Of a stretch of 34,959 nt of DNA, positions 3,452 through 15,207 are shown in pieces; within the stretch, counting starts at the first letter, position 1; each line of letters starts with the position of its first letter. The notes beneath the pieces are model-generated. The model did not search any database. It had not been told where the DNA came from and was given only the letters and a program-made list of their open reading frames with translations. Both the position numbers and the translations under genes were made by a program. Source of the DNA: a virus; the IMG/VR virus record IMGVR_UViG_3300043436_002927, positions 1 to 34,959 of that record; one strand, 5' to 3'.

Positions 3452-3643
3452 GTGATTATAAGTGTATTTGCGGTTGTTAAATTACGATATATTGATAATA
3501 TAAGCGGTTATGAGCATTGGTCGGTCTATGAGCCTAATAAACATAGAATTGATTGCGTTAGTTATGAAGCCGCTATTGAATTATGCAAACAAATTAATTT
3601 AGAAATTGAGAAAACATTAAATATTGGAGGTTATAAATCATGA
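3452..3643 (+). CDS. Hypothetical protein (63 aa), GTG start
   Basis: The frame opens with GTG at 3452 and has no good Shine-Dalgarno site. A competing ATG at 3448 yields only ten residues. The product (MIISVFAVVKLRYIDNISGY) reads as two beta strands followed by a helix (SYEAAIELCKQINLEI), a plausible small alpha/beta fold. The stop overlaps the start of the next gene by four bases, and its last codons provide a GGAGG for that gene, which supports real coding. The exact start is uncertain. Confidence 0.5.
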   Translation: MIISVFAVVKLRYIDNISGYEHWSVYEPNKHRIDCVSYEAAIELCKQINLEIEKTLNIGGYKS

Positions 3644-4197
3644 CTGAGAAAAAAGAAAAAGAAGCCATACGAGTTTGGAAGCAACGAAAAGAAGTTTTTA
3701 GATTGCGTGCTGAAAGTTACACTATTAGGCAAATATCAGAAAAAACAGGCGTATCCACTGGAAGTATTGACGGCTATTTTGCCAATCGTAAAAATATAAC
3801 AAAATCATTTGCAGAAGTTGAATTGTTCCAAAGTGACCTTAATAATCAAAACTTAGGCGTTGGGTTGCAGCGTTTAGAAAACATTCAAAACAATCAATTA
3901 AAATCTATTGTCTTTGATTATGTTAAAGGCGTATCTGTTAAGGATATTATTGCAAAACATAATATCACTAAAATAACCAGTGAATATGTATTAGCAATAA
4001 TGGTTGATGACGAAATAAGCACGGCTCGTAAAAGAGTTGTGGCTAAAGTGCATTATGACCGTGCTAGTCCTGATATTAAGGTTAATACGTCAACCCAAAA
4101 AGAAAAATATCGTGCTGCAAAAGTTGATGAATGGGATTTTGGCAATGAACAATTTATAGCAAATGATGGTGCTATTCCTGAATTAAGGCGGTGGTAA
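3640..4197 (+). CDS. HTH-containing DNA-binding protein (185 aa)
   Basis: ATG at 3640 follows GGAGG with suitable spacing. Residues about 25-47 fit a helix-turn-helix of the resolvase/sigma-4 type (YTIRQISEKTGVSTGSIDGY), and a second similar segment lies at about 95-118 (GVSVKDIIAKHNITKITSEY). The N-terminus is very basic and the C-terminal 50 residues are polar. Two HTHs in tandem suggest a transcription regulator, possibly an activator of later genes, or a small-terminase-like DNA binder. The sequence does not decide. It is the last gene of its operon and converges with the recombination operon. Confidence 0.6.
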   Translation: MTEKKEKEAIRVWKQRKEVFRLRAESYTIRQISEKTGVSTGSIDGYFANRKNITKSFAEVELFQSDLNNQNLGVGLQRLENIQNNQLKSIVFDYVKGVSVKDIIAKHNITKITSEYVLAIMVDDEISTARKRVVAKVHYDRASPDIKVNTSTQKEKYRAAKVDEWDFGNEQFIANDGAIPELRRW

Positions 4198-4885: not shown

Positions 4886-5091
4886 TAAAACGGCACTCCC
4901 CACCATTGCCAAGCATTGCAAGCCACTGGCTTTATATCTTCGGGTATTTGCCTATTGTTATTTGCTGTGCATAAACCCATACTGTGAAATTCACAATTTG
5001 CGCACTCCTTCTTATCAGGTAATGATTTAAGAATATCTATTGCACGTTGCAAACTCTCAATTAAATAATGCTTATCTTGGGGTAAAATCAT
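4885..5091 (-). CDS. Small four-cysteine protein (68 aa), possible zinc or Fe-S site
   Basis: The start at 5089-5091 (MILPQDKHYLIESLQRA) was chosen over an ATG at 5160 that would run deep inside the helicase gene. After an N-terminal helix the protein has CANC, then a Cys eight residues on (GLC) and a fourth in VACNAW, a CxxC...C...C pattern that suits a metal site. Similar small phage proteins with a CxxC-GxC-CxxW layout are known without assigned function. It overlaps the helicase 3' end by 20 bases and the resolvase start by one, so it probably acts with them. Confidence 0.6.
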   Translation of the reverse strand: MILPQDKHYLIESLQRAIDILKSLPDKKECANCEFHSMGLCTANNNRQIPEDIKPVACNAWQWWGVPF

Positions 5092-6688
5092 AATATAGAA
5101 CCTCGTAATATTTGCTATCAGGTTGTTTTTTAATATATACTGTTTCAGGCAGTATAGCATGTTCTTTTGCTATTGCGATTAATTCAGTGACACTAGTTGC
5201 TTTCAAATGTTCGCCATTAGGAAACCATTGCTTTAATCGTTTTGATGCTCTGGCTAATCCTAACCATTCGCTGCAATATAAAGCAACCCCCCAGTGATAA
5301 TCTATGCGCATCGTTTCATTGCCATTGTCACGCTTTATATGATGCTCAAAAAATATGTGGCTTGGGTGAATGCCTAACTTAACCTCTATGGGTTTATTTA
5401 TAATATCGCCTTGCGCTGCAATGTCTTCATGCGGTGCTTTTTGCACAAATGGCGCACCACATTTGATGCAGTGTGTAGCTTTTGCGTGATTAATTTCTTC
5501 GCAACCTTCCCATGAAGGCTCTAAGTTATCTGCAATACACCTCTTAAATGGCGCAGTTCCAGCCTCCCCGCTATCAGTTAAAGCCTTTTTGCCTTGTGGT
5601 TGGTTGTCAATCGCTCCGAACCTATCAACATTGCCTCCATAATCAAGCAGCAAGCAATGCGTTTTACCTTCAAATAAACGCATTCCACGCCCAACCATCT
5701 GCACATAAAGCCCTCGTGATTTAGTGCTGCGCAACAATACCACACAATCTATTCTAGGAATATCCGTTCCAGTGGTTAGCACTGCATTATTGCACAAATA
5801 ATCATAAGTGCCATTACGAAGTCTTTGTATAGCCTTTTCACGTTCATTAGCTGGCGTTTTATCATAAACCACTGCGCCCTTTAATCCACGGCTCTGTAGC
5901 AATTTATGCGTATGTTGCGCATGTTCTACCCCTGCACAAAAGAACAAGAATGATTTATGTTGTGTTGCTCGCTTAAAAACATCATCAAGCGCACGTTCAG
6001 TTACGCAATCAGCCATAAAAGCATTTTGCATTTCTCTTTGGTTGTATTCACCCGCAACAGTTCGCACATTGGATAAATCCACTTGCTCGGCGGTTGGTGA
6101 TTTTGTATAAACTGGTGATATATAGCCACGTTCAATTAACTTTAATATTGGATATTCAAAGCATATATCTGTAAATATTTCACCATTAAGCAAATGCCCC
6201 CCTGCCATGCGATAAGGCGTTGCAGTCAATCCAATAACTTTAATATTAGGGTTGTTTTTTTTTAATCCATTTAGAAATGTGTGATACCCACCTTCTGCTT
6301 TATTTGGCAACAAATGACATTCATCAACAATAATCACATTGCGATAACCAAATATTTCAGCTTTATCTCGCATAGATTGAATGCCACCAAAGATAATAGG
6401 GTGATGCGCCTGTTTTTTGCCAAGACCTGCACTGTATATTCCTGCGGGCGCATTGTGCCATAAAGTCATTAGCTTTTCATGGTTCTGTGCTATCAATTCC
6501 TTAACATGCGTTGCCATAATAAATCGCTGGTCTTTATCCATAGCCATGGCGGAACGTATCAATTCTGCAATCACAACGGATTTACCGCTTCCAGTTGGTA
6601 ACACAACAAGCGGATTTCCTTTGTTGCCCCCTGCAAAATATTCATACACGCTATTAACTGCGTCTATTTGATAATCTCTAAGTTGCAT
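5072..6688 (-). CDS. DEAD/DEAH-box superfamily 2 helicase (538 aa) with zinc ribbon
   Basis: The motifs appear in order: Q-like RDYQ near residue 4, Walker A PTGSGKS (31-37), Walker B DECH (122-125), TATP motif III (155-158), the helicase C domain with TTGTDIP (305-311), and motif VI QMVGRGMR (330-337). This is the UvsW/RadD-like SF2 group that remodels branched DNA. Cys 384, 396, 407 and 410 form a likely zinc ribbon after the helicase core, followed by about 130 unassigned residues. The start ATG at 6686-6688 follows GGAGG and overlaps the nuclease gene end, so eighteen upstream codons were dropped. The role is probably replication fork or D-loop processing with Sak4 and RusA. Confidence 0.88.
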   Translation of the reverse strand: MQLRDYQIDAVNSVYEYFAGGNKGNPLVVLPTGSGKSVVIAELIRSAMAMDKDQRFIMATHVKELIAQNHEKLMTLWHNAPAGIYSAGLGKKQAHHPIIFGGIQSMRDKAEIFGYRNVIIVDECHLLPNKAEGGYHTFLNGLKKNNPNIKVIGLTATPYRMAGGHLLNGEIFTDICFEYPILKLIERGYISPVYTKSPTAEQVDLSNVRTVAGEYNQREMQNAFMADCVTERALDDVFKRATQHKSFLFFCAGVEHAQHTHKLLQSRGLKGAVVYDKTPANEREKAIQRLRNGTYDYLCNNAVLTTGTDIPRIDCVVLLRSTKSRGLYVQMVGRGMRLFEGKTHCLLLDYGGNVDRFGAIDNQPQGKKALTDSGEAGTAPFKRCIADNLEPSWEGCEEINHAKATHCIKCGAPFVQKAPHEDIAAQGDIINKPIEVKLGIHPSHIFFEHHIKRDNGNETMRIDYHWGVALYCSEWLGLARASKRLKQWFPNGEHLKATSVTELIAIAKEHAILPETVYIKKQPDSKYYEVLYYDFTPR

Positions 6689-7409
6689 GACATTCCTCCG
6701 CATAATCGCACCATCTGCACATGTAAAAATCGGTCTTCTCACTTATTCGCATTAATGGCTCTTTTGCCCTTATTATTCTATCCGCTCTATCTATAAGCAT
6801 TTTGGCATATCCTTTATCATATTCAGTTCTACAGCTATCAAAATCTCTAACGCCTGATAATGACACAGTCATATAATGGCGTGTCACGTCCATATAGTGC
6901 ATATAGATTTGCGCTTGCCCATAATAAACAATATCCCAATGTTGTAAGGTTGCCTTTTCACCATGTTTTGCTTTAAGATTTTGAAACTCTGCAAACTTTT
7001 TATGGTTAGTATCTTTGTGTTCCCACAAATGAACAGTCTTAGGGGCTTGATGCAATCCTCTTATCATGCCGTCTATATGCCCTGCAAACTTACCCTCTAA
7101 ATCAGTAAAGCCGATTTGCTTATCATCATCGCCATGCGTAACAAGTTCTATACCCTCTATTAAACGCAAATAAGCTGCCATAGTATCTTCTGCCCTATGT
7201 CCACAATTTACGGCTAAATGCCCTTTATCATTCATTGGTTTGCGCAATTCGGGGCGGTGGTAACTATACCATGTTTTGCGCTCGCATGGTTGCCCTACAG
7301 AAGATGCCCCTAAATAATTGCGTGGCTTTTGATTGCGCTCAATATCGCATAATATTTCACGCAAACGCTCTAATGTTGGGTCATTTTCTGTAAAGGCAAC
7401 CATTATCAT
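6678..7409 (-). CDS. PD-(D/E)XK nuclease, Cas4/RecB-like, with Fe-S cysteines (243 aa)
   Basis: Catalytic residues are visible: E75 in HRAEDTMAAY, D113 in GHIDGMI, E130-x-K132 in LWEHKDT and the QAQ motif near 165-167. Four cysteines at 42 (GQPCERKTWY), 231, 234 and 240 (CRWCDYAEEC) match the 4Fe-4S arrangement of Cas4 and AddB-type nucleases. Such proteins act as single-strand exonucleases that make ends for strand annealing. The start was set at 7407-7409 (MIMVAF), with ATG 7403 as alternative; the longer frame would overlap the upstream gene. No CRISPR array or cas gene is nearby, so this is a phage recombination nuclease and not an adaptation protein. Confidence 0.82.
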   Translation of the reverse strand: MIMVAFTENDPTLERLREILCDIERNQKPRNYLGASSVGQPCERKTWYSYHRPELRKPMNDKGHLAVNCGHRAEDTMAAYLRLIEGIELVTHGDDDKQIGFTDLEGKFAGHIDGMIRGLHQAPKTVHLWEHKDTNHKKFAEFQNLKAKHGEKATLQHWDIVYYGQAQIYMHYMDVTRHYMTVSLSGVRDFDSCRTEYDKGYAKMLIDRADRIIRAKEPLMRISEKTDFYMCRWCDYAEECHAT

Positions 7410-7413
7410 AATA

Positions 7414-7857
7414 TTACCAAGCTGGCTTGTTAAAAGTTTTTGGCTGCGCAGTTGGCGCAGGGGCTTCGCTCGCTGCATTAGCTGGCTTGATATAATTTAG
7501 CTTATTATACGTTTTGCCGTTATAAGTTGTGTGTTTAACTTGCGCAGAAAACACGCCATCAATCATATCATCAGTATCTAAACCAGTTGGATTAGGCTTG
7601 CGTCCAGTTACGCCAAAATAGATTTTGCCTAAATCTTGCGCTGCATATTTGCGAGTATCTGAACTTTCATGATTTGTTTGATAAAGCACAGTGTAAGTTT
7701 TATCATCATCTTTATTCAAAAACTCTAATACAATACCTTGCTTAATTGCTTCGGCTGAAACAACTTTAATTAAATATTCTCCCTCTGGCGGATTATAATT
7801 GTTGTAATCATTTGCTTCTGGGTCAAATCCTTCATAATCATATTCTACTTTAACCAT
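7414..7857 (-). CDS. DUF669-like single-stranded DNA-binding protein (147 aa)
   Basis: The product begins MVKVEYDYEGFDP and has a beta-rich core with GEYLIKVVSAEA and KTYTVLYQTNHES, followed by ARKT-like KYAAQDLGKIYFGVTGRK and VFSAQVKHTTYNGKTYNKL. This matches the DUF669 pattern seen in many phages beside Sak4/Erf/RecT-type annealing genes. A Pro/Ala/Gln linker and terminal KPAW end the chain. Ending in an aromatic residue is typical of such SSBs, although acidic residues are scarce here. AGGAG precedes the ATG at good spacing. It would coat the single strands made by the neighbouring nuclease. Confidence 0.72.
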   Translation of the reverse strand: MVKVEYDYEGFDPEANDYNNYNPPEGEYLIKVVSAEAIKQGIVLEFLNKDDDKTYTVLYQTNHESSDTRKYAAQDLGKIYFGVTGRKPNPTGLDTDDMIDGVFSAQVKHTTYNGKTYNKLNYIKPANAASEAPAPTAQPKTFNKPAW

Positions 7858-7868
7858 AATATTTACTC

Positions 7869-8624
7869 CTAATTGTTGTTGTTAAATGTGTTAGTGCCTA
7901 TCGCTGAAATAAAGCTATTCCAGTTGCAGGGAACTTCTTTTGGCAATGCAAGGCGATTTTTTGTTCTCGCACCTAGCATACTACTTGAATATAAAATTGT
8001 TTCGTTGCTTTCAATTTTACCATTTGGTGATTTATCGCTATTAATCATTTTTTTCTTTGCTAGCAAAACTGCGTCCGCCCATTCAATGGCAGCAGCTGCA
8101 AACTTATCATGCAATTTTATTGTATGTTCTTCGTAATCACCATCAATAGGGTCGCTTCTTGATTTTATTAAAGTGTGCGCTATCAAAATAATAGACATAT
8201 TTTTTTTATCACGCAATTCATCTAACTTATCACGAAAAGCGATAAACTTATTACACGCTAGAATATACCCATTGCCGTATGCGGTTATTCCATTTGATTT
8301 ATCAGAAATGCTATTGGCTTTTGCTGATATGCAAATTTCATCATGAATAAACCGTTCAAGGCAATCTAATGTATCAAGTCCAAGTGTTTTATAATCATGT
8401 TCTTCATTCAATAAAGCATCAATTATTTGATTACAAGCTGCAAAGTTTTTAGGCTTGGCTTTATTAAAATCATAATAATCTGCACTACCCTCTAAATCCA
8501 TTAAAATTGCTTTGGTAGAATTTCCAGCAAATGGAGTTTTACCAACTCCCTCTTTTCCATAGACAACAATCCTTGGTGGTTTTGCGCCATGTTCGTTTGT
8601 TACTACTTTTTGCAATAATGACAT
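7869..8624 (-). CDS. Sak4-like RecA-fold ATPase (251 aa), single-strand annealing/recombination
   Basis: A RecA/AAA-type core is visible: Walker A GKEGVGKT (23-30), an acidic segment LMDLEGSADY (41-50), Walker B LGLDTLDCLE (81-90) and the strand SIILIAHT followed by a DNA-contact-like loop. This fits the phage AAA_24/Sak4 family, which promotes single-strand annealing together with an SSB. The length and the AAGGAG site eight bases before the ATG are normal. The ATG overlaps the stop of the upstream gene (TAATG). Asn-rich C-terminus (NTFNNNN). The association with the DUF669-like gene immediately downstream strengthens the assignment. Confidence 0.82.
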   Translation of the reverse strand: MSLLQKVVTNEHGAKPPRIVVYGKEGVGKTPFAGNSTKAILMDLEGSADYYDFNKAKPKNFAACNQIIDALLNEEHDYKTLGLDTLDCLERFIHDEICISAKANSISDKSNGITAYGNGYILACNKFIAFRDKLDELRDKKNMSIILIAHTLIKSRSDPIDGDYEEHTIKLHDKFAAAAIEWADAVLLAKKKMINSDKSPNGKIESNETILYSSSMLGARTKNRLALPKEVPCNWNSFISAIGTNTFNNNN

Positions 8625-9061
8625 TATTTTAACTCCTTAATTGTTATAGTTGGGTTGCCCGCCTCAACAGTTCTAGCTTGCTCAAACTCACCACGGTAAA
8701 TAAATGGCATGTTTTTATAGCGTGTTTCTGATACCGATAATTTACGGTCTATATATTCGCTTGCATCTTGCCCTGACGCTTCAATTTTACCCCACAAATC
8801 AACAAGCAAATCATTATCCCAAGTAACTTTTTTAGGATAATTTAAGGTAACTTTTACAGTTAATCCATTGATTGTTGCGCTGCCTGTGCCGTAATCTTTA
8901 TCTAATTGGTTTTTAATATTATCTTCATTTAGTTTTGCAATTTGTTGTTCAATATTTATTTTAATTAAGTCAATCAATTTGCGATTAGCTTGTGCGCCTT
9001 GCTCAATAGCTTTTAATTGCTGCCATTGAATAATTAATGCTTCTGTTTGTTCTATTGTCAT
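8624..9061 (-). CDS. Conserved phage protein of recombination operon (145 aa)
   Basis: This is the first gene of the operon, with AAGGA before the ATG. The N-terminal 60 residues form a long coiled helix (LIIQWQQLKAIEQGAQANRK), then a beta-rich part follows: ATINGLTVKVTLNYPKKVTW with DNDLLVDLW, ending AGNPTITIKELK. This order (helix, the T.GLTVK strand, DxxLL..LW, final P.I.I) resembles a phage family often placed before Sak4 genes and probably known only as a DUF; I am not certain of its number. No catalytic residues stand out. It may be a partner of the ATPase or nuclease. Confidence 0.6.
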   Translation of the reverse strand: MTIEQTEALIIQWQQLKAIEQGAQANRKLIDLIKINIEQQIAKLNEDNIKNQLDKDYGTGSATINGLTVKVTLNYPKKVTWDNDLLVDLWGKIEASGQDASEYIDRKLSVSETRYKNMPFIYRGEFEQARTVEAGNPTITIKELK

Positions 9062-9083
9062 TTTATTTATTCCTTTTTACATG

Positions 9084-9124
9084 TTGACAAAATTAAACAT
9101 AATGTATTATAGTTTTAATTGCAA
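9084..9124. promoter_or_regulatory. Overlapping divergent promoters of the replication genes
   Basis: On the plus strand TTGACA (9084-9089) is followed by TATTAT (9105-9110) at 15 bases, or TATAGT (9108-9113) at 18. On the minus strand TTGCAA (9119-9124) precedes TATGTT (9096-9101) at 17 bases. A palindrome ATAAT-GT-ATTAT (9099-9110) lies over both -10 regions and is a possible operator for the ribbon-helix-helix protein encoded just downstream. The two promoters share DNA, so they are expected to interfere with one another. Confidence 0.5.
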
Positions 9125-9164
9125 CAATAAAATGAAAAAATAATTTAACAAAATAGGATTATAT

Positions 9165-9338
9165 ATGTATAATGATAGAACAATATATCATGATGATGAT
9201 TGCGGAACAAAAAGAGAATATTTAGGACTGAGAATTGATGCTAAATTAAAAAAAGAGTTAGAGGAATTGGCAAGGGATAACAAAAGAAGTCTTTCTGGAC
9301 AAGTTGAATTAATTTTAGAGCAAGCAATTAACCAATAA
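9165..9338 (+). CDS. Ribbon-helix-helix (Arc/MetJ-like) regulator (57 aa)
   Basis: The core reads YLGLRIDAKLKKELEELARD, a beta strand with alternating residues then helix A, followed by the turn NKRSLSG and helix B QVELILEQAINQ. This is the standard RHH fold used by Arc, MetJ and antitoxins, which bind operator DNA as dimers of dimers. The length is typical. AGGA lies about seven bases before the ATG. The N-terminal 19 residues are acidic and His-rich and may be disordered. It sits directly beside the divergent promoters and ahead of the primase gene, so autoregulation and control of replication genes are likely. No toxin gene is adjacent. Confidence 0.75.
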   Translation: MYNDRTIYHDDDCGTKREYLGLRIDAKLKKELEELARDNKRSLSGQVELILEQAINQ

Positions 9339-9350
9339 GGTTTTGAATAT

Positions 9351-11567
9351 ATGTCTATATTTGCAGATAACGCACAAAGATATTTTGATGCGGGGTATAA
9401 TATATTGCCTTTAGCCAAAGGAGGCAAGCAACCAGTTGTTAAGGGCTGGCAGGAATGGGGCAAGCGGAAGCAGCCACAATTTCAGATTGATAATTGGGTC
9501 AATATTTATGGTGATGGTAATATTGGCTTACCACTTGGTGAAAGCAATAATGTTATTGCACTTGATTTTGATATAGATGTTGACGGATTACATGCAAAAA
9601 TCATTGCTATGATAAAGCCTTCACCAGTGCGTAAAGTTGGCGCAAAGGGTTTTACGGCTTTTTATCGTTATAATGGTGAGCGTAATAGGCGATGGAAAAC
9701 GGAAGGTGAAACAGTTGTTGAGTTGCTATCAACTGGCACTCAAACAGTTATGCCATATTCCATTCACCCTGATACTGGCAAGCCGTATATATGGCTAACA
9801 GAGGATAACTTGCTTGATTATGATGCCATGGATTTACCACAATTACCTAATGATTTTATTGATAAAGTTGATGAATTATTTGGAATTAAGCGAAAGATTA
9901 TTGAATATAGCAGAACTAATAAGCGAAAGATTATTGAATATAGCAGAACTAATGAAGGTGGCGATATTGAGTTAGATACTGTTAAAAGTGCATTACAGTA
10001 TATTGCAGCAAATGAATATTCTACTTGGATTGAAATTGGTATGGCGTTAAATCATACTTATGGCGATAATGCTTTTAATGTGTGGGATAGTTGGAGCGCA
10101 ACGGCTGCAAATTATGACCCTGCCAAAATGGATTACAAATGGCGTTCATTCGGGGCTTATACGGGTTCAAAAATTAGTGCAGCAACTATTTTGCATTATG
10201 CTATTGGTGGTGGGTGGTTGCCTCCTAGATTACTTAATGATGATGCGGTTATTGTAGTTGGCGAAAAAAGCAAAAAGCCAAGTAAGAAAAGCAATGTGCA
10301 GAAAATGCAAATTGCAAATGAAACAAATAATAGCATTCCTGACCATTTGTTAAACGCTCCTAATTTGGTTGGTGAGCTTGTAAATTGGATTGAGAGTTGT
10401 GCGATACGCAAACAACCCGCCTTGGCTCTGGGGGCGTCCATAGGGGCGGTTGGCACTGTTATGGCACATAGATTTAGAACTCCTAGCGATTTGCGTAGCA
10501 ACATGATGACTTTGGGTATATGTGGCTCGGGTATGGGTAAAGACCATGCTAGAAAGTGCATATCTATGTTATTTAATGAAGTTGGTATGGGCGAAAAGTT
10601 GCTTGGTGACTTTGCTAGTGATACAGCGGTAATTAGTGCATTGCATAGCAGGGCAGGAATTGGATTTGCTATGACTGACGAAATAGGCGATGCTTTGGCT
10701 GCAATGGGTAGTAAAAATGCAGGAAGTTATGAAGCTAGGATTTTACGGATAACTAAAGAATTATTCAGCAGTGCTAATACTGTTTATTTGGGCAAGGAGT
10801 ATGCTAACCATGATGGCAAGATGGAAGCAAAGCGGATTAATCAACCTTGTTTGTCGGTTTATGGAACTAGCACCGAGAAGCAATTTTATGATGCTTTAAG
10901 TGGCGATAAAATCCTAGATGGGTTTTTGCCTAGATGGTTAATTTTTGAAGGCAATGGACATTCGCAAAAGACTGGTAAAATAAATACCGTTATAAACGCC
11001 CCTGATAGCCTCATAGAAGCCTTTAGAAAGATTTATGATATAAACCCTGCGGGCGATAGTCCTTCCCTTGTGGTGGGGCGTATAAAGCCTCGTGTGGTAG
11101 ATATATCAAACGGCGCAGCGGACAAGTTTAATCAGCTTGATGATTATGCGGAAGAAATGCGCTTAAAGGAATACGATAAAAAAAGCGGTTTTGATGCGCT
11201 TTATGCTCGCATTCCTGAACATGCTTATAAATTAGCGTTAGTTGCGCATGGTGAAGGCGGTATTAACGCAAGCGTGGCAGCGTGGGCTTGCGAATTGATG
11301 ATGCATTTATCGGCGCGCATGGTTGCTATTGCTAAAGAAAATATAGGCAATAATGATTATGAGCGTGATTTAATGGCGGTTTTAAGATTTATTGCAGAAA
11401 ATGAAGGGGGAATAAACAAAAAACCTATTATTCAAAAATTCAGACGGATAGCTTTACAGGACTTAAATAAAATATTGCATCATTTGGCAGAAAGTGGTAG
11501 CGTTGAAGTTGAAGAAAAGTCATCAAAGGGTAATAATAAGCCGATGCACGTTTTTCATGCAGTTTAA
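9351..11567 (+). CDS. Primase-polymerase/helicase-like replication protein (738 aa)
   Basis: The N-terminal domain (about 1-175) is of the bifunctional primase/polymerase type: YNILPLAKGGKQPVVKGW, catalytic LDFDID (71-76) and SIHPDTG with H139. Then comes a PriCT-2-like region (about 205-290: SALQYIAANEYSTWIEIGMA, DYKWRSF). The C-terminal part (about 335-650) matches the DUF3987 group, with a P-loop-like GICGSGMGKDHARK near 390-403, MTDEIGDAL as Walker B candidate and a final winged-helix-like end. It would prime and probably load on the origin. A 33-bp tandem duplication lies in the linker. The start has only a weak AAGG ten bases upstream. It ends at the iteron region. Confidence 0.85.
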   Translation: MSIFADNAQRYFDAGYNILPLAKGGKQPVVKGWQEWGKRKQPQFQIDNWVNIYGDGNIGLPLGESNNVIALDFDIDVDGLHAKIIAMIKPSPVRKVGAKGFTAFYRYNGERNRRWKTEGETVVELLSTGTQTVMPYSIHPDTGKPYIWLTEDNLLDYDAMDLPQLPNDFIDKVDELFGIKRKIIEYSRTNKRKIIEYSRTNEGGDIELDTVKSALQYIAANEYSTWIEIGMALNHTYGDNAFNVWDSWSATAANYDPAKMDYKWRSFGAYTGSKISAATILHYAIGGGWLPPRLLNDDAVIVVGEKSKKPSKKSNVQKMQIANETNNSIPDHLLNAPNLVGELVNWIESCAIRKQPALALGASIGAVGTVMAHRFRTPSDLRSNMMTLGICGSGMGKDHARKCISMLFNEVGMGEKLLGDFASDTAVISALHSRAGIGFAMTDEIGDALAAMGSKNAGSYEARILRITKELFSSANTVYLGKEYANHDGKMEAKRINQPCLSVYGTSTEKQFYDALSGDKILDGFLPRWLIFEGNGHSQKTGKINTVINAPDSLIEAFRKIYDINPAGDSPSLVVGRIKPRVVDISNGAADKFNQLDDYAEEMRLKEYDKKSGFDALYARIPEHAYKLALVAHGEGGINASVAAWACELMMHLSARMVAIAKENIGNNDYERDLMAVLRFIAENEGGINKKPIIQKFRRIALQDLNKILHHLAESGSVEVEEKSSKGNNKPMHVFHAV
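9888..9953 (+). repeat. 33-bp perfect tandem duplication inside primase gene
   Basis: Bases 9888-9920 and 9921-9953 are identical and in frame, duplicating KRKIIEYSRTN (residues 180-190 and 191-201) in the linker between the prim-pol and PriCT-like domains. The absence of any difference between copies suggests a recent slippage event. Confidence 0.95.
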
Positions 11568-11573
11568 TTAAAA

Positions 11574-11874
11574 TTGCAAGGTGTATTCAAGGTGTTGGCA
11601 GGGTGCAGAATAAAAATACACCTTGCAACATATTGAAAATAAAGAATAAAATAGCTAAAAATAGGCGCAAGGTGCAGGGTGTAAGGGGGTATTAATATAC
11701 CCCCATTTTTTTGTGTATTTTTTGGATAAGTATGCACCCCCTTACACCCTGCACCTTGAACTATATATGTATATATATATTATATATATTATTATTATAA
11801 ATCAATACGTTATGTTTGTTGTGTGTGCGATTTGCAAGGTGTAAAAATAAAATACACCCTGCAACACCTTGCAA
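11574..11874. other. Iteron array: candidate replication origin
   Basis: Eleven matches to the 10-mer GCARGGTGYA (up to two differences) occur: plus orientation at 11576, 11587, 11598, 11667, 11674 and 11834; minus orientation at 11617, 11743, 11750, 11853 and 11863. They include a perfect 23-bp inverted repeat (11668-11690 with 11736-11758) and two shorter ones (11574-11585 with 11617-11628; 11832-11842 with 11864-11874). Between them, 11761-11803 is almost pure A/T and would melt easily. Iterons plus an AT block next to the primase gene is the classic layout of a phage or plasmid origin. The origin function is inferred. No credible gene lies in 11568-12080. Confidence 0.65.
11685..11712 (+). 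terminator. Intrinsic terminator after primase gene
   Basis: GGGGGTAT (11685-11692) pairs with ATACCCCC (11697-11704) around a four-base loop and is followed by A and seven T residues. Its left arm is also part of the 23-bp inverted repeat and can pair instead with 11736-11741, so the terminator and the long hairpin exclude each other. Confidence 0.75.
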
Positions 11875-11891
11875 TTTCTTTGCAATTTATT

Positions 11892-11916
11892 AACTGGTGA
11901 CAATCCGTCACCAGTT
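11892..11916. repeat. Perfect 10-bp palindrome, 5-base loop
   Basis: AACTGGTGAC (11892-11901) and GTCACCAGTT (11907-11916) are exact complements. There is no T-run, so termination is unlikely. A third ACCAGTT lies at 11936-11942. A protein-binding site beside the iterons, such as a replication or regulator operator, is the likely role. Confidence 0.6.
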
Positions 11917-11947
11917 GAAGCGGTTACATTTTATAACCAGTTCACAC

Positions 11948-11980
11948 AAAAAAAAGAGGGTAGCAACAGCACCCTCTATT
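11948..11980 (-). terminator. Intrinsic terminator of the 14.6-12.1 kb operon
   Basis: Read on the minus strand, AGAGGGT (complement of 11971-11977) pairs with ACCCTCT (complement of 11955-11961) around a nine-base loop, followed by a run of T residues. It lies about 100 bases after the last minus-strand gene and faces the primase terminator. Confidence 0.85.
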
Positions 11981-11983
11981 AAA

Positions 11984-12118
11984 TTAAAATATTCATAATT
12001 TTATCTGCTTACCTCTTTTATTAATTGTCCTATTGCATTAGTTACCCGATTTTATCGGGCAGCTTAAAATATTCATAATTTTATCTGCTTACCTCTTTTA
12101 TTAATTGTCCTATTGCAT
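11984..12118 (-). repeat. 55-bp direct repeat: duplicated 3' end of the adjacent gene
   Basis: Bases 11984-12038 and 12064-12118 are identical (period 80), continuing with one mismatch for five more bases. The right copy holds the last codons (AIGQLIKEVSR and stop) of the 12081-12293 gene. The left copy is a remnant without a start codon. Between them a 6-bp stem with 3-base loop (CCCGAT/ATCGGG, 12045-12059) occurs. This looks like a recent partial duplication that moved the terminator away from the gene. Confidence 0.9.
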
Positions 12119-12293
12119 CAGTTTTTTCAATATCAGCTTCAAAGTTTGATGGAGTTAGTTTTATATCATTATGTCTAACCTCCATATAACCTCGTTGATT
12201 TGGTATAACTAACTGCTGCGTTGTTACCATATAGCTATAACAAATAGCTATAAAAGCAACCCAACCTAAACTTGTGACTAAAAAATATTTCAT
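12081..12293 (-). CDS. Membrane-anchored small protein (70 aa)
   Basis: ATG at 12293 follows GGGGAGG at ideal spacing. Residues 3-24 are hydrophobic (FLVTSLGWVAFIAICYSYMV) and form a signal anchor; the remaining 45 residues are polar and, by the positive-inside rule, probably extracytoplasmic. There is no lipobox. It is the last gene of its operon, and its 3' end is duplicated downstream. The function is unknown. An inner-membrane phage protein affecting the host envelope is one possibility. Confidence 0.6.
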   Translation of the reverse strand: MKYFLVTSLGWVAFIAICYSYMVTTQQLVIPNQRGYMEVRHNDIKLTPSNFEADIEKTDAIGQLIKEVSR

Positions 12294-14748: not shown

Positions 14749-15207
14749 ATGGCTTTAACTGATAAGCAGCAAAGATTTATTCAAGAATATCTCAAAGATT
14801 GCAACGCTACTCAAGCGGCAATTCGTGCTGGATATAGTGAAGATAGCGCTTATGAAATAGGTTCTAAAAACTTGAGAAAAGTTGAGATTGAGGTAGCTTT
14901 AACAGAAGCTAAAAAACAATTAGCAGAAGCAGCGCAAGTTGAAGCTGAATGGGTGGTGAAAAACCTTAAATCTATTGCAATGCGATGTATGCAGGTTGAG
15001 CCTGTCATTGATAATAAAGGAAATCATTTATTGGTTAAAAATGATGATGGTAATTTAGTTCCTGCCTATACATTTAATGCGCAAGGTGCAGTGCAATCAC
15101 TTAAAACGATTAATGAGATGTGCGGGTTTGAAGCAAGTAAAAAACTTGATGTAAATGTTAAGCAATCATTAGCTGATATTATAGGGAATATTAATGCACA
15201 ACGATGA
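14749..15207 (+). CDS. terS: Terminase small subunit (152 aa)
   Basis: The N-terminus LTDKQQRFIQEYLKDCNATQ followed by AAIRAGYSEDSAYEIGSKNL is the HTH DNA-binding domain typical of the Terminase_2 family, with KVEIEVALTEAKKQLAEAA as the following oligomerisation helix. The C-terminal part would contact the large subunit. It recognises the packaging site and guides the motor. Its 3' end overlaps the large subunit start by 14 bases. No Shine-Dalgarno is present before the ATG; a nearby ATG at 14745 is out of frame. It is the first gene of the virion operon. Confidence 0.9.
   Translation: MALTDKQQRFIQEYLKDCNATQAAIRAGYSEDSAYEIGSKNLRKVEIEVALTEAKKQLAEAAQVEAEWVVKNLKSIAMRCMQVEPVIDNKGNHLLVKNDDGNLVPAYTFNAQGAVQSLKTINEMCGFEASKKLDVNVKQSLADIIGNINAQR

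Follow-up and report, generated by a model that had tools for sequence, protein, structure and literature searches.

What purpose is served by a gene-free block of short repeats lying directly behind a primase gene of a virus? Such a block is found in a virus record of IMG/VR, 34,959 bases long, which was analysed at full length and is called the window here. An earlier, sequence-only reading had seen in it a candidate replication origin with about eleven copies of the 10-mer GCARGGTGYA, in both orientations, within some 300 bases. Judging from sequence comparisons and structure models, we consider it highly likely that positions 11571-11888 constitute the replication origin of a tailed phage and that the protein encoded just upstream uses it. 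We infer that initiator binding, loading of a double hexamer, melting, priming and the start of replication take place at this locus.

Composition of the repeat block

The exact motif is present nine times in the window, compared with 0.24 occurrences expected from dinucleotide-preserving shuffles, and eight of these copies are confined to 11576-11862, the ninth being located at 15081. Three near copies bring the total to the eleven that had been claimed; they span 11576-11872, with six on the plus and five on the minus strand (see table). The placement in a gene-free region after the primase/helicase gene was likewise confirmed, as the block lies between the stop codon of the 738-aa ORF (11567) and a convergent ORF whose 3' end is at 12081, and the first copy begins 9 bp past that stop.

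Neighbouring copies are 7-11 bp apart and occur in both orientations. Copies 5 and 6 together with copies 7 and 8 form the 23-bp inverted repeat noted earlier, which is perfect and encloses a 45-nt loop. Two positions differ among the iteron copies, yet the arms of this repeat are exactly complementary, and pairing extends into AAGGGGGT, which is not iteron sequence. The inner tandem lag (copies 5 and 6) is 7 bp and the outer lags are 10-11 bp; seven of the eleven copies fall outside the stem, and the outer ones make two longer, imperfect inverted repeats. The A/T-only stretch previously placed at 11761-11803 is interrupted by a G at 11769 and by one C at each end and hence is not strictly A/T-only; what stands is a long A/T run of 33 bases, the longest of the window (the second longest measures 20), which starts 11 bp past the right arm.

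Table. Features of the repeat block and its surroundings (window coordinates)
Feature	Position	Strand	Description
3.3-kb block: DUF7173-like gene, primase, origin	8620..11942		98% identical between L009 and L010
Initiator candidate, 738 aa	9351..11567	+	Pfam/PHROGs, PDB profile match, AlphaFold models, fold searches
Predicted winged-helix codons, proposed iteron reader	11355..11564	+	about aa 669-737; model pLDDT 88
Iteron 1	11576..11585	+	GCAAGGTGTA, exact
Iteron 2	11587..11596	+	TCAAGGTGTT, two mismatches, read by eye
Iteron 3	11598..11607	+	GCAGGGTGCA, exact
Iteron 4	11617..11626	-	GCAAGGTGTA, exact
Iteron 5	11667..11676	+	GCAAGGTGCA, exact; within left arm of 23-bp inverted repeat
Left arm, 23-bp inverted repeat	11668..11690	+	begins 100 bp after primase stop; terminates in AAGGGGGT
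Iteron 6	11674..11683	+	GCAGGGTGTA, exact; 3-bp overlap with iteron 5 (7-bp lag)
Intrinsic-terminator-like hairpin	11685..11704	+	GGGGGTAT-TAAT-ATACCCCC plus T-run; 5' strand common to left arm
Right arm, 23-bp inverted repeat	11736..11758	-	perfect match to left arm
Iteron 7	11743..11752	-	GCAGGGTGTA, exact
Iteron 8	11750..11759	-	TCAAGGTGCA, one mismatch
Proposed melting block	11770..11802		33-bp A/T-only run
Iteron 9	11834..11843	+	GCAAGGTGTA, exact
Iteron 10	11853..11862	-	GCAGGGTGTA, exact
Iteron 11	11863..11872	-	GCAAGGTGTT, one mismatch
Intrinsic-terminator-like hairpin	11955..11977	-	serves convergent minus-strand genes

An Rfam search of the region gave no match, and neither did a search for DNA similarity to phage and plasmid records, which is expected if iteron words change quickly. 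GC skew along the window tracks gene orientation and yields no origin signal; the cumulative-skew check suggested earlier was thus uninformative.

The long inverted repeat might instead act as RNA, i.e., as a structure at the 3' end of the primase mRNA which competes with the terminator formed by GGGGGTAT-TAAT-ATACCCCC and its U-run, and which thereby governs where transcripts terminate, how stable they are or how far antisense transcription extends, the iterons being incidental. An RNA stem would indeed be very stable (-53.4 kcal/mol, z -7.2), and it would be mutually exclusive with the terminator-like hairpin as both use the same GGGGGT strand; the stem-loop of plasmid pRN1 likewise adjoins a terminator (PMC4234260). 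However, direct repeats, an AT block and the copies outside the stem are superfluous to an RNA stem, and no notable plus-strand gene follows until 14749. Moreover, mutation or deletion of the pRN1 terminator did not abolish replication, whereas the stem-loop was needed and remained functional when moved (PMC4234260). We regard a function as RNA as quite improbable.

The putative initiator and its C-terminal domain

Pfam assigns only three domains to the 738-aa protein: Prim-Pol (aa 8-165), PriCT_2 (212-284), and a DUF3987 helicase/ATPase (420-634). The protein matches DNA primase PHROGs, and a profile of six members detected the Prim-Pol of pRN1 ORF904 in the PDB (1rni; E 4.1e-8). Closest to the full-length AlphaFold model were the structure of the pRN1 primase and then those of MCM-type and other AAA+ ATPases. 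When modelled separately (pLDDT 88), the last 105 residues are predicted to form a long helix followed by a strand-helix-helix-strand-strand arrangement, and the solved structures closest to it in fold are for the most part winged-helix domains (Z about 10-11). The origin-binding domain of P4 alpha was absent among the fold matches listed for this model, which carries no weight either way. The C-terminal region is present but variable in aligned relatives. Based on these models, the C-terminal winged helix is probably the part of the protein that reads the iterons.

Next to the primase gene, the minus strand at 5072-9061 carries a cluster for replication and recombination, with genes for a DEAD/ResIII-type helicase, a Cas4-type exonuclease, and SSB-like and Sak4-like proteins. 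A small protein encoded on the plus strand at 3640-4197 shows weak similarity, below curated cut-offs, to sigma-70 region 4 and HTH domains and is possibly a phage regulator.

The region behind related primases

Two related contigs carry a nearly identical block, one of them (L010) with an unrelated right flank, and their 43-kb and 17-kb records contain no exact motif outside the block. Since the 3.3-kb block is 98% identical between L009 and L010, and identity is only 89-90% in the aligned blocks that follow towards the replication genes, primase and origin look as if they had been exchanged together as one module. A 60-nt sequence is directly duplicated at window positions 11984-12043 and 12064-12123 (98% identity, 80-bp spacing). 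Between the two copies lies the hairpin ACCCGATTTTATCGGG, which in L010 directly follows the origin block; its position at the divergence point of the two phages suggests a recombination junction.

Distant primases were gathered from viral and genome contigs, the latter contributing five loci only, and were clustered at 80% amino acid identity into 67 families. For the 58 families in which either flank extended over 520 bp, the two sides were compared at fixed thresholds, with the 5' flank as control. Clustered 9-mers were present in the 3' flank of 11 families and in the 5' flank of one (1.9 expected from other locus positions), and large-loop inverted repeats in 12 and none (1.3 expected). 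For AT blocks (40-bp windows with at most 8 G+C) the numbers were 18 and 3 (1.7 expected), and for G/C runs of at least 6 they were 15 and 4 (4.4 expected). At these thresholds, 29 of the 58 families displayed none of the four features. The post-primase layout is therefore common among families but not universal. The repeated words vary by family (e.g., GGAATYTGGATT, TGCGATTTATY, CTTAATCGCAG, ATAATTGTAA, ATTGGGGGMGGAAA, ATGTTGGCGA), occur in both orientations and are grouped around the stretch of the locus that is richest in A and T. Many divergent relatives whose iterons differ in sequence thus keep them in this position behind the primase, which, along with the specificity of the motif for its site, supports the earlier proposal of an origin.

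No such region was found in C7, H188, phiHSIC, P400, CRP-902 and H40/1, all of them cultured phages with related primases; the large-loop repeat was not found in YX3973, DDSR119, MR14 and RHph_X2_30, and the paper on phage TLS reports no iterons. Tracts resembling AGGGGGT (AG5+T) are located at most 350 bp after the primase in 17 of 89 regions, with 2.2 expected, the pattern having been picked after inspection of part of the data, and TAGGGGT is present in plasmids pRN2 and pSSVx. This excess is therefore suggestive only, and a role of the tracts in priming or pausing would be a guess. The related contigs L041, L075, L150, L181, L015, L092, L153 and L039 stop 140-520 bp after the primase, perhaps because assemblies break at repeats or hairpins. 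About 1.4 kb past the primase, L199 and L135 have repeat clusters that score very high (737 and 748); these are unlike the origin-type ones and are probably tandem arrays.

Many short sites in both orientations would also suit a regulator, and in some relatives the next gene begins just downstream. The repeats could accordingly be an operator cluster to which a phage repressor or a nucleoid protein binds in order to control transcription. Yet the position of the block is conserved with the 3' end of the primase gene, and sigma-70-like matches number 5, compared with 6.6 in shuffles. No promoter is expected here because both flanking genes end at the block, which also counts against an operator, and we hold this explanation to be highly improbable. 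That the block serves packaging (pac) or partition, with a small terminase or ParB-like protein binding to it, seems scarcely credible. Such proteins can use repeated sites, and a gene for a terminase small subunit starts at 14749, 2.9 kb off; however, the layout is found behind the primase also in relatives whose neighbouring genes are different, it recurs in part in pRN-type plasmids, where no packaging genes are annotated, and past the block one close relative has a different sequence.

The inverted pair of tandem copies had been called unusual, a view that did not hold, as tandem lags, large-loop stems and relatives reveal a recurrent pattern of this class of replicons. In 25 regions picked for having repeats, not for repeat lag, exact 7-mers in tandem at a lag of 8-11 bp number 37, compared with about 2 in Markov-shuffled sequence, and they are scarce at lags of 12-18 bp. 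A tandem word of at least 6 at lag 7-10 is contained in 12 of 29 large-loop inverted repeats located after the primase (11 without a low-complexity case) and in one of 34 located elsewhere (Fisher p 0.0007 for 11/29 versus 1/34, related families not being fully independent). Cultured phages provide examples at lag 9, i.e., Yuna (GGCACAGATGGCACAGAT), BPP-1 (TTGCCTCGTTTGCCTCGTT), Acinetobacter phage 4316 (AGTGACGTTAGTGACGTT) and RcJoli (TCTCACCATTCTCACCAT), and at lag 8, i.e., AchV4 (GTTGGATTGTTGGATT); mycobacteriophage Yuna has nine copies of ATCTGTGC.

The site word shows a modest tendency to follow the C-terminal domain. Over 406 non-independent pairs from 29 regions, shared words correlate with similarity of that domain at a Spearman coefficient of 0.26, versus 0.13 for whole-protein identity. 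Among them are two pairs whose C-termini are 78-80% identical and which have 23 and 14 word counts in common, and TTGCAA-type and ACAAACAT-type words recur inside two groups.

Known origins and a possible common grammar

Iteron origins of theta plasmids (RepA/RepE type) consist of direct repeats every 20-22 bp or so in one orientation. The window does not fit this type, as its copies are 7-11 bp apart and in both orientations, with a family-wide lag peak at 8-11 bp. Nor is it of the lambda O type, in which iterons reside within the initiator gene; the primase gene holds only isolated matches with one mismatch.

Iterons are found directly downstream of the genes for SCCmec Cch2 and SaPI Rep (PMC7581432, citing Ubeda 2007 for SaPI), and the isolated C-terminal domain of Cch2 binds (PMC7581432). 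The window resembles these systems and P4 in having repeats downstream of a self-loading helicase gene, an AT-rich block alongside, and a predicted C-terminal DNA-binding domain as the proposed reader. Membership in the SaPI Rep family proper was rejected; helicases of Rep and Cch2 are of the D5_N/Primase_Cterm or DUF927 type, and Pfam shows none of these in the 738-aa protein. The alpha protein of P4 combines primase, helicase and winged helix in one polypeptide, as predicted for the window protein, and binds repeats at the origin (PMC4234260); its primase, however, is of the bacterial (Toprim) type and not a Prim-Pol.

According to the pRN1 study (PMC4234260), an element with a 21-nt stem and a 58-nt loop, located 54 bp after orf904, is required for replication. 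The window shares with pRN1 an ORF904-related initiator with a Prim-Pol at the N-terminus and a (predicted) winged helix at the C-terminus, a long perfect stem with a large loop 3' of the gene (23/45 nt, at +100), an adjacent terminator hairpin, and a stem built of tandem copies. It differs in that PriCT-2 takes the place of the pRN1 helical domain and, by Pfam, DUF3987 that of the SF3 ATPase. In pRN1 no further copies are seen outside the stem, and its authors describe such origins as being without iterons and with a binding motif 'not yet identified'. An iteron-free origin of the pRN1 type was rejected for the window given its eleven copies, of which seven are not part of the stem.

The essential pRN1 stem (L231 3075-3190) reads TTATGTCCATAGTGTCCAACT and contains TGTCCATAGTGTCCA, in which TGTCCA is repeated at a lag of 9 bp; the other arm has the pair in inverted form. 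No mention of this pair was found in the sections of PMC4234260 that were consulted. The lag is the same in the pHEN7 stem (TGTCACCACTGTCAC); the pRN2 stem has a 4-nt pair only (GGAC twice at lag 9), and no clear tandem pair was found in the pDL10 and pSSVx stems. A tandem reading of pRN stems would thus be founded on pRN1 and pHEN7. Since a change in one arm of the pRN1 stem was rescued once symmetry was restored (PMC4234260), arm pairing matters too, and a pure protein-site reading is insufficient.

The same study noted a stem-loop in Bordetella phage BIP-1 and excluded iterons (PMC4234260). BPP-1, which like BIP-1 and the window encodes a Prim-Pol/PriCT-2 protein, has a 22-bp perfect inverted repeat with a 60-nt loop and two TTGCCTCGT copies 9 bp apart in each arm. 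As this repeat is located 466 bp after the primase gene, past a small annotated ORF, it may differ from the published stem-loop. NrS-1 is another phage with a Prim-Pol, in this case joined to a helicase and a helix-bundle domain (PMC8718748, PMC7102993). For NrS-1, start sites have been proposed at two single TTTGGTTA copies in mid-genome, in contrast to the iteron cluster of the window. The Prim-Pols of pRN1 (PMC4234260) and NrS-1 (PMC8718748) start on templates containing GTG, which is present in each exact iteron of the window.

Guided by P4 alpha, SaPI Rep, Cch2, pRN1 and NrS-1, we propose the following course of events. Through its C-terminal winged helix, the Prim-Pol/DUF3987 protein would bind the GCARGGTGYA sites, whereby close tandem copies (7-11 bp) might seat adjacent subunits and the inverted arms two oligomers head to head. 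ATP-driven helicase rings, possibly aided by extrusion of the 23-bp stem, would then open the adjoining A/T block, and the Prim-Pol domain would start DNA on the exposed strands, such that two forks depart. The origin reading draws on the site specificity of the motif, the post-primase layout in divergent relatives, the tandem lag, the winged-helix prediction, the trend linking words to C-termini, the 98% identical primase-region module, and the precedents of pRN1, SaPI Rep and Cch2. Counted against it were the GC skew, the 29 featureless families, the cultured phages lacking the region, the inner lag of 7 bp where 9 bp is common, and the gel shifts and footprints that gave no specific binding to the pRN1 stem-loop region (PMC4234260).

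The iteron origins of SaPI/P4 and the stem-loop origin of pRN1 are already known as kinds. It is tempting to speculate, with chances that we place just short of even, that replicons of tailed phages with a Prim-Pol/helicase/winged-helix protein and archaeal pRN plasmids share one origin grammar, in which the word changes with the winged helix and the geometry stays. In this grammar, words of 6-9 bp would stand in tandem at a period near 9 bp and recur as an inverted pair; the whole would directly follow the initiator gene, with an AT block inside or next to it and in many cases an AGGGGGT tract. We found no description of this composite, family-wide design in open-licence full texts, and an earlier account may exist elsewhere. 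The replication origins of many Prim-Pol phages are still to be located, and a simple rule would be to inspect the sequence directly behind the primase gene for tandem words at a spacing of about 9 bp which form an inverted pair and adjoin an AT block. Such a rule would predict origins and initiator target sites, cultured phages included. If true, the grammar would also supply the recognition motif that the pRN1 study reports as not yet identified, making that site directly testable, and it would unite iteron origins with the pRN1 stem-loop origin, which are separate in the literature.
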